Shown here: positions 4,601 through 6,689 of the stretch, piece by piece | Layout: every line of letters starts with the position of its first letter | Numbering within the stretch: position 1 is the stretch's first letter | Assembly: GCA_009869945.1 (NCBI GenBank) | Contig: WIXG01000044.1 | Location: 266,777-330,776, forward strand | Length of the DNA stretch: 64,000 bases | Reading direction: 5' to 3' | Source of the DNA: Mesaphorura yosii | Taxonomy: Eukaryota; Arthropoda; Collembola; Poduromorpha; Tullbergiidae | The notes under the pieces: model-generated | The model's input: the letters and a program-made list of their open reading frames with translations, nothing else | Told to the model about the DNA's origin: nothing | Database searches by the model: none | Position numbers and translations under genes: made by a program

Positions 4601-6689
4601 TCAATGGATCCATACTTCGAAATCCGGACACCAAGCCCTCATTCATCTCAAATTTGTTGGATGCCGACATGGCGTTCTGTGTCAACAATCGAAACAGAGG
4701 GATCTTCATGCATATCTCAAATCGAGTCGATTGGGGTCATTTGGTACGAATTAGACCGTGGCGTGGCACGCCGCACGCGGCTCAATATAGTTGTGCTATG
4801 ATTATGAGTATGAAATGGCTCGTGACATGCAATTTCTTCTTTTCGCAGGTCAATGCAGAAAATTTCGATACATCTCACGTGCACAATGAATTGTATCAAA
4901 TATTCGACAATCGATGGGACTGGGAAGTGAGATACTTGCATCCAAACTGGTCGAAGGCCCTGGAGCCAAACAGCACTATCGAGCAGGTAAAAAGACTATT
5001 TCTGGTGGAACCTTGTTAAATGCAATGATAAATTCGCATTATTCTTCATTTGGCCTGCAGCCTTGTCCAGACGTGTACTGGTTCCCGATCGTGACCCCGC
5101 GATACTGCGTAGAGAAGGTTGCGGAAGTGGAAAATTTTGGTCAGTGGTCGGACGGATCGAATTATGTAAGTTATGTTGTGAAGAGCTCAACACCAAAACC
5201 GCTGACAAAATTTCGAAGAATGTGTCATTGCAATCTCGTTCGTCGTAGATTTTGAGAATGATAGTAAAATATTTGTATGAAAGGATCCGCGTCTTGAGGG
5301 TGGCTATGAAAATGTGCCGACTGTGGATATTCACATGAATCAAATAGGATTTGAGGCGCACTTTCTAGAATTACTGCGCTTGTACGTTGAGCCCTTGCAG
5401 ACGAGGGTTTACACGGGTTACTATCATTATGTAAGTCAAATCAATCCGATGGCACAGCGATCATAGGGAACAAGAAGAAAATACAGTGCAATCCAACATT
5501 AAAGGTCTTAGAAACCAGCACACAGTGTAGCAATTTCCTCTAACTTCAAGAGCTCACGTGATTTGTGTGCAAAGTTTAAAAATCGGATCCTTCAGGCATG
5601 ACAAAAATTGGAGAGCAGCAGATGAAGAGTTAAACCGCATGATTTCTTCCGCTTTAACTACATTTTATTTTGTCTTTCACCAAATTGCATGCACTTCCCC
5701 AGAACGCGGATCGTAAAGAGACTGGCTTTGACGATTATCCAACCGTTGACATTCACATGTTCCAAATTGGACTTCATGACGTATTCCTGGATTTTCTAAG
5801 ACACTATGTCCGTCCATTGTCCGCCAAAGCTTTCGAGGGCTATGACGAGGTTATAATTTCATCAACTCGGCTGATTTTTTAAATTAGAGTTGTGATTCGG
5901 ACAGGTTGAGGGTTTTTATTGTTGCATTTTTCGTGGCGAAGGGTTTTTCCGAATGGGATCATTACGTTTTACTCCTCATCTCTGCTCTCCGCTTACCAAG
6001 TCTTTGCTCTAAAGTATCTGAAGTTGATTTCGATGTTATTTGCACATAACACGTCTAAATTGGAGCCAAACGTAGCTGCTATAACAAGTATTTAGTGTAC
6101 AAAGATTCTCAGATCGAATCCTTACGATGCACTGGAAAGTACACGTATTTTCTTCTTATTCTTTTGGTCATGTCGTAGAAATCTGTACCTCATTTAGTTC
6201 CAGTCAGTTCTTTACTCGAGATTAATTTGTTCTTGTAAATGTCCAGCCGCCTTTCGCGTCCATGAATTTTATGGTGCGCTACAAGCCCGATGAGCAGCGA
6301 GAGCTGAAGCCCCACCATGATACATCCACGTACACGATTAATATCGCCATGAATACTTACGGGAAAGATTACACGGTAAGCCTGACATTAAAGCCCTTAA
6401 CTTAACATGCGAATGATGGAAAATGAATGCTGTAATTGGAAATATTCACTCAGGGCGGCGGATGTCGATTTACGAGGTACAACTGCTCGGTGGTCGAAAC
6501 TAAGCAAGGATGGGTGAGTTTGACAGGCAAACCACTAAGATTGGAAAAATTGTCAATCATTAATGCTATCCGTGTCCATTTCTTGATCTTTAGATGTTAA
6601 TGCACCCTGGAAAATTAACACATCAGCACGAAGGTCTGAAGATCCTATCTGGGACTAGATACATAATGATTTCCTTCGTGGACCCGTAA
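1646..6689 (+). CDS. Plod: Procollagen-lysine 2-oxoglutarate 5-dioxygenase (lysyl hydroxylase), 5' end missing
   Basis: The family hydroxylates collagen lysines in the ER using Fe(II), ascorbate and 2-oxoglutarate; some members also glycosylate hydroxylysine. Exons: 1646-1904, 1967-2130, 2221-2410, 2495-2819, 2890-3011, 3097-3324, 4560-4743, 4849-4986, 5061-5165, 5284-5430 (or 5703-5849), 6247-6375, 6454-6513, 6594-6689. All have GT-AG borders and compatible phases, giving about 714 residues, close to family length without the signal peptide. The N-terminal part has the glycosyltransferase-like LTVATK and DSYDV motifs. The C-terminal dioxygenase domain shows HHD (iron His and Asp) in exon 6247-6375, and a His in [11 protein letters not shown] as the probable third ligand. 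The protein ends in SFVDP, as lysyl hydroxylases do. The first exon may instead start at 1662. The signal-peptide exon is not seen. The 1.2-kb intron 3325-4559 contains another gene on the minus strand. Confidence 0.93.
3352..3357 (-). promoter_or_regulatory. Polyadenylation signal of the oig-4-like gene
   Basis: TTTATT on the plus strand reads AATAAA on the minus strand, about 145 bases past the oig-4-like stop codon. It still lies inside the host intron. Confidence 0.5.
3502..4231 (-). CDS. oig-4: OIG-4-like secreted single immunoglobulin-domain protein, nested in a lysyl hydroxylase intron
   Basis: Exons on the minus strand, 5' to 3': 4231-4142, 4074-3973, 3899-3750, 3657-3502. All have GT-AG borders and phase 0, giving 165 residues. 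Residues 1-25 are a clear signal peptide (hydrophobic [10 protein letters not shown]). Then comes a basic Gly-Arg-Lys segment, and then one I-set Ig domain from about residue 68. Its paired cysteines are in FMCMAEG and YECYAEN, with the core Trp in ITWFKDG. The [15 protein letters not shown] linker and the Ig sequence resemble the arthropod/nematode oig-4 family; the C. elegans member is a secreted factor that stabilises acetylcholine-receptor complexes at muscle. The start at 4231 is preferred over the upstream in-frame ATG at 4303 because it puts the hydrophobic core at the right distance. The gene lies wholly inside intron 3325-4559 of the lysyl hydroxylase gene, in the opposite direction. 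Confidence 0.88.
5284..5430 (+). CDS. Plod: Lysyl hydroxylase alternative exon A (canonical version)
   Basis: This exon is 147 bases, phase 0 at both ends, and encodes the segment just before the iron-binding HHD. It keeps the family signature [15 protein letters not shown] and ends in TGYYHY. The donor (GTAAGT at 5431) is strong. The acceptor is weak: almost no pyrimidine tract precedes the AG at 5282-5283. It is homologous to the exon at 5703-5849 and is probably used instead of it, not with it. Confidence 0.85.
5703..5849 (+). CDS. Plod: Lysyl hydroxylase alternative exon B (diverged version)
   Basis: Also exactly 147 bases and phase 0. The translation shares PTVDIHM-QIG, the Leu/Arg/Tyr pattern after it, and a Gly-Tyr near the end with exon A. 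It differs at most other positions (TGFDDY in place of GGYENV, FEGYDE in place of YTGYYHY). The acceptor has a good pyrimidine-rich stretch (TTCCCCAG), while the donor (GTTATA at 5850) is weak, the reverse of exon A. Equal length and phase make the two exons interchangeable. Confidence 0.82.

Follow-up and report, generated by a model that had tools for sequence, protein, structure and literature searches.

Does a PLOD (collagen lysyl hydroxylase) gene in this arthropod genome carry two versions of a single exon, of which each transcript takes one or the other, and what would such an exchange alter in the enzyme? Most of the gene lies on the plus strand of the window, the 64-kb stretch of DNA analysed here, and two neighbouring exons within it, A (5284..5430) and B (5703..5849), are probably a tandemly duplicated, mutually exclusive pair. 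The original prediction had proposed such a pair, with unequal splice sites and a possible effect on the substrate site or collagen preference of the enzyme, and the analysis presented here follows each of these points through the gene model, the splice sites, the pattern of substitution between A and B, and the structure of human LH3.

Gene model and homology of the two exons

The gene body, as read from the sequence, spans 1646..6689 of the window (plus strand), with the first six exons of the model at 1646-1904, 1967-2130, 2221-2410, 2495-2819, 2890-3011, and 3097-3324, followed by exons at 4560-4743, 4849-4986, 5061-5165, either A or B, 6247-6375, 6454-6513, and 6594-6689. A putative signal-peptide exon, which lies 1985 bases before the window begins and was picked by its phase and leader rather than by homology, would supply the ATG and a hydrophobic leader in a phase that fits, and with this exon included the A-form and the B-form are each 757 aa long. 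Pfam places a PLOD glycosyltransferase domain (PF25342, E 8.4e-106) and a 2OG-Fe(II) domain (PF03171, E 3e-9) in the A-form, and recognises the hydroxylase domain of the B-form as PF03171 (E 4e-10), with the HHD motif and the downstream His of the gene lining up with the HxD..H iron ligands of LH3.

The coordinates proposed for the two exons, 5284-5430 and 5703-5849, proved exact, with each exon 147 nt long, bordered by AG and GT, in phase 0 at both ends, and free of stops in the common phase. The claim of homology was likewise borne out, with 23/48 aligned residues identical and an alignment score of 112, compared with at most 35 among 500 shuffles. The gene model and the LH3 alignment set the pair between two constitutive exons, 5061..5165 (plus strand), which ends in ..GQWSDGSNY with the donor gtaagt, and 6247..6375 (plus strand), which bears the HHD iron ligands, and the joins from 5165 to A or B, and from A or B to 6247, all preserve the reading frame. 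Both exons had been placed directly before the iron-binding HHD; this is incorrect, as they end ~22 residues ahead of the position of His667 of LH3.

A search of the 93-Mb genome with a 714-residue A-form returned 19 matches. Apart from exon B and the query's own exons, these cover a second PLOD gene, located on contig C11, and a weakly scoring stretch of contig C125 that by eye resembles a collagen galactosyltransferase; among the best candidates scored, B is the sole extra exon at the PLOD locus. Exon B, searched against the whole genome, matches itself, A (E 9.7e-9), the C11 paralogue (E 2e-5), and, at chance level, contig C162 (E 0.9). The second PLOD gene (C11:23712-26157) has few introns and is 50% identical over the main stretch, and no duplicated exon was found in it. 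With this second gene in the genome, B might be a fragment of another PLOD copy that the assembly put in the wrong place; however, B is found once in the assembly and is identical to the C11 segment at only 19/47 residues, and the C11 gene holds that segment within one 686-codon open frame, so that an artefact of this kind is most improbable. No lysyl hydroxylase was found in the viral contigs and prokaryote genomes scanned, and no bacterial promoter or terminator turned up in the intron before A. COX1 had no match in the genome itself. Its protein families, with 66 matches to chitin_bind_4, 26 to the hemocyanin family, and 4 weak ones to OS-D, indicate an arthropod, perhaps a pancrustacean.

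Other features of the window were noted alongside the PLOD gene. The PLOD intron 3325-4559 contains a nested antisense gene (window 3502-4231, minus strand) of four exons (4231-4142, 4074-3973, 3899-3750, and 3657-3502), with a product of 165 residues in which a hydrophobic leader is followed by one I-set immunoglobulin domain (E 1.1e-13). Further along lie a 640-codon open frame (20745-22664, minus strand) that matches RRM three times and, towards its C-terminus, a RING-type finger (22.2 bits, against a cut-off of 21), two plus-strand exons (15292-15525 and 16744-16980) that by eye resemble KH domains of the kind seen in IGF2BP-type RNA-binding proteins, and an open frame that by eye is rich in Lys, His, and Gly-Trp and has no Pfam match (47851-48561, minus strand).

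Splice sites and selection on exon B

Splice sites were scored with a matrix derived from the 11 donors and 12 acceptors of the gene itself, which gives exon A a donor of 8.7 and an acceptor of -1.3, and exon B a donor of 2.05 (GAG/GTTATA) and an acceptor of 2.5, compared with leave-one-out ranges of 2.2 to 10.1 for the constitutive donors and -1.5 to 8.3 for the constitutive acceptors. The opposite strengths proposed for the two exons hold within limits, with the acceptor of A at the bottom of the range and the donor of B below all 11 constitutive donors of this 11-site matrix, although one constitutive acceptor (-1.5) is as weak as that of A. Approximately 15% of the 268 other GT dinucleotides in the gene outscore the donor of B, and ~31% of the 268 other AG dinucleotides outscore the acceptor of A. 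An in-frame GT 42 nt inside B (after 5807) scores 2.33, slightly above the B donor, and two AG upstream of A (0.71 at 5249 and 0.32 at 5257) score above its acceptor.

A donor weaker than all of its constitutive counterparts raises the alternative of B as a relic or poison form, either rarely spliced or retained together with the following intron, where read-through would meet a stop at 5880-5882 after ten further codons. The substitutions between A and B speak to the first of these. The two exons are alike at 63/96 first and second codon positions and 16/48 third positions, and a joint codon-position test, which takes A as the ancestor and lets A change synonymously only and B neutrally for an equal time, rejects a neutral B at P <= 0.0045 over nine divergence times. 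Moreover, where A, LH3, and the C11 paralogue all agree, B retains the residue at 12/12 positions, compared with 7/16 where only A and LH3 agree (Fisher P = 0.0017), and its changes thus avoid the invariant residues. A weaker test, matched on first and second codon positions alone, does not reject a neutral B on A-B amino-acid identity (P = 0.08), yet the same comparison matched on total identity gives P = 0.00065; as the result is sensitive to matching, the simple comparison was discarded as proof of selection, and the joint and conservation tests were used instead. The lack of stops in B was also set aside as weak evidence, with 15–20% of neutral simulations free of stops too. Taken together, these tests, made within a single genome, favour a B maintained by selection as part of a lysyl hydroxylase, which argues against a relic. 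As for a poison form that ends the transcript, neither AATAAA nor ATTAAA occurs between 5703 and 6246, so no terminal exon is obvious, and we consider a relic or poison form of B decidedly unlikely.

The distance between A and B (23/48 identical) is roughly equal to that between B and LH3 (21/48), indicating that either the duplication is old or B has changed fast.

One exon or both

Inclusion of both exons would give a product of 806 aa and inclusion of neither a product of 708 aa, each in frame, and the frame therefore does not enforce exclusivity, nor can frameshift and decay clear errors; exclusivity would have to arise from splicing itself. The intron between A and B (5431..5702, plus strand) is 272 nt long, which renders simple steric hindrance unlikely. 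Inverted repeats at 5468-5484 and 6145-6161 would loop out B, and others at 5248-5267 and 5418-5437 would loop out A, and A and B begin with mutually complementary bases. Pairing of intron RNA was nevertheless not adopted as the mechanism, with shuffles of the same segments doing about as well (P 0.09, 0.38, and 0.14) and no pair among the 10 examined standing out plainly from its shuffles (lowest P 0.023, for up-B; 0.09 for mid-down).

The open frame of the double form also allows B to be an optional extra exon, with some transcripts carrying A and B and hence the segment twice. The intervening intron is long enough to splice, and the donor of A and the acceptor of B are the better site of each exon, making an A-B join plausible; in FGFR2, unequal acceptors are needed for the choice of a single exon, and a strong upstream acceptor beside the strong downstream one leads mostly to inclusion of both exons in one cell line (PMC2880598, in excerpt). 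Both A and B, however, retain the residues of one structural slot, down to the PTVDIHM that includes LH3 Asp611 and His613, and two capping loops and helices in series ahead of the beta core would presumably be hard to fit. Such pairs are also rare among exons that are not exclusive. A published predictor of mutually exclusive exons considers length, splice pattern, frame, and homology, on all of which A and B agree, and on the fly X chromosome only 90/16180 non-exclusive exons, in 6/1705 genes, did the same (Pillmann et al. 2011; PMC3228551, in the part available). An optional B is therefore unlikely. Mutually exclusive use best accounts for the equal length, the same phase, the homology, the selection on B, and the unequal splice sites; that splicing picks one exon or the other, and why it would do so, is inferred.

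Candidate Rbfox sites for the proposed choice

The Rbfox site was the only splicing motif tried, first as the hexamer TGCATG and then as the core GCATG over the same segments, and was chosen because FOX2 controls PLOD2 exon 13A and Rbfox proteins are known to regulate exclusive exons. Within 5166-6246, GCATG occurs three times in the A-B intron and 0 times in either exon or in the two flanking introns, with candidate cores at 5596..5600 and 5637..5641 and a candidate full motif, TGCATG, at 5686..5691 (all plus strand), the last separated from exon B by 11 nt. Three cores are more than expected from shuffles of the A-B intron (P = 0.0034), but 248/12746 windows of the same size here (1.9%) equal that number. 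A single TGCATG in 787 nt of intron is unsurprising (P 0.39), whilst one within the 50 nt before B has P 0.031. Across the window as a whole, TGCATG is over-represented on both strands, with 82 matches compared with 51.8 expected and 0/100 shuffles reaching 82. An Rbfox-like RRM exon is encoded on contig C171 of the same genome.

In FGFR2 the upstream acceptor is weaker and the downstream acceptor stronger, and Fox2 represses the downstream exon via UGCAUG in the intervening intron, whilst in the exon pair 5A/5B of worm egl-15, Fox-1 and ASD-1 help to repress exon 5B (both PMC2880598, in excerpt). By analogy, the weak acceptor of A, the stronger acceptor of B, and the Rbfox sites between them would act together, with Rbfox repressing B and so favouring A. 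This proposed Rbfox switch is offered as a lead only.

The segment that would be exchanged and the capping loop

Aligned to human LH3, exons A and B correspond to residues 597-645. According to the available portions of PMC6082870 and PMC9453210, the hydroxylase pocket of LH3 is covered by a capping loop (residues 590-610) that is locked shut by a second Fe2+, itself bound by His595, Asp597, Asp611, and His613, and Arg599 mimics the substrate lysine; the latter paper adds that residues 640-646 of one subunit touch the capping loop of the other. A single exon thus covers the greater part of the capping loop, along with the helix behind it and the beginning of the cross-dimer partner loop, and the splice choice would replace loop and contact at once, the loop for the most part and the contact in its first residues.

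Between A and B, identity by block is 6/14 (597-610), 6/7 (611-617), 9/22 (618-639), and 2/5 (640-644, all in LH3 numbering), which rules out the idea that the differences lie in loops only. The suggested effect on the substrate site or collagen preference can be sharpened to the capping loop and the cross-dimer contact, although, with the helix differing as much as the loop (9/22 and 6/14), effects on substrate or partner are equally open.

The shared exon 5061-5165 encodes Asn where LH3 has His595, and hence both forms carry it, at a ligand stated to be fully conserved in the family (PMC6082870, in the part available). Exon A is otherwise canonical, keeping three of the four second-iron ligands of LH3 (Asp597, Asp611, and His613) as well as Arg599, with an extra residue in the 640-650 loop relative to LH3. 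Exon B keeps Arg599, Asp611, and His613, and its capping loop is one residue longer than in A and LH3. Asp597 is not in register in B, where 597 falls on Asn or on Ala according to the alignment used and an Asp directly precedes the Arg, and the full LH3 ligand set is complete in neither form. The Asp of B, one residue off, might still bind iron.

In human LH3, the single mutants Asp597Ala and Asp611Ala bind iron about four times less tightly, with uncoupled turnover up 3–5 times and coupled activity about 1.5 times (PMC9453210, in excerpt). With Asp597 out of register and the loop one residue longer, the B-form is predicted to be locked less firmly by iron and to stand more open, in the manner of the human Asp597Ala mutant, and access of the substrate would be altered. 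Carried further, the pair may be an evolved splice switch for iron-dependent self-inhibition, with A iron-gated and B de-gated through replacement of the loop and its cross-dimer partner together in one exon, and with tissues setting collagen hydroxylation by splicing and not by choice of gene; we put this forward tentatively, as a reading with the balance of probability against it.

The second-iron site also differs among related enzymes. The C11 paralogue has a shortened capping loop and Gln where LH3 has His613, and Gln again aligns with 613 in the viral enzyme of 6ax6, which we take to be mimivirus L230. Together these make the site less universal than the ‘full conservation’ described in the available part of PMC6082870, and the genome of this arthropod may hold several grades of gating. 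The viral Gln also bears on a rival account of the swap, in which the exons are exclusive and the exchange leaves gating unaffected, the two forms differing only in stability or choice of partner. In favour of this account are a helix that differs as much as the loop, an Arg599, Asp611, and His613 identical in both forms, and a second-iron site that is not universal. Conversely, the loop is alike at only 6/14 positions and longer in B, and loss of one iron ligand, as in the two LH3 mutants above, is enough to raise uncoupled turnover. A swap with no effect on gating is thus a serious possibility, if still short of likely.

The available portions of PMC11676324 and PMC7990156 place no Bruck-syndrome mutation in the capping loop. 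Natural isoforms that differ in the capping loop, the helix, and the partner loop only would make any role of the iron-locked loop in the living animal, beyond crystals and test tubes, testable in one gene, and would show an arthropod diversifying lysyl hydroxylation by splicing. Matches to the collagen IV NC1 domain lie on three contigs of the same genome.

Comparison with known systems

Mutually exclusive exons are known as a kind, and it is the location of this pair in the capping loop that deserves attention. Like the exclusive exons of Dscam, muscle myosin heavy chain, and dynein heavy chain, A and B are neighbouring, homologous, equal in length, in the same phase, and compatible in their splice sites; unlike those pairs, they belong to a collagen-modifying dioxygenase and were read here from genome sequence. 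The collagen prolyl 4-hydroxylase P4HA1, a different enzyme, likewise has exclusive exons (presumably exons 9 and 10) in a collagen-modifying 2-oxoglutarate dioxygenase. Mutually exclusive splicing of P4HA1 is mentioned in the available part of PMC9189910, a survey of human exclusive exons (PMC5740500) names neither P4HA1, P4HA2, nor PLOD in its main text, and the open-access literature searched yielded no account of such exons in PLOD.

Within the same gene family, human PLOD2 is also alternatively spliced, with exon 13A (LH2b/LH2a) encoding a 21-residue loop of the accessory domain that alters glucosyltransferase activity, and FOX2 promoting its inclusion (PMC8055892, in excerpt). The original prediction treated this splice change as different in kind, and rightly so, exon 13A being a single cassette exon in the accessory domain that swaps nothing in the hydroxylase domain. 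Exons 8 and 9 (IIIb/IIIc) of FGFR2 resemble the present pair in their weaker upstream and stronger downstream acceptors and in the UGCAUG-type site between them; in contrast to the weak donor of B, however, the 5′ splice sites of FGFR2 are without obvious difference in the available text of PMC2880598.
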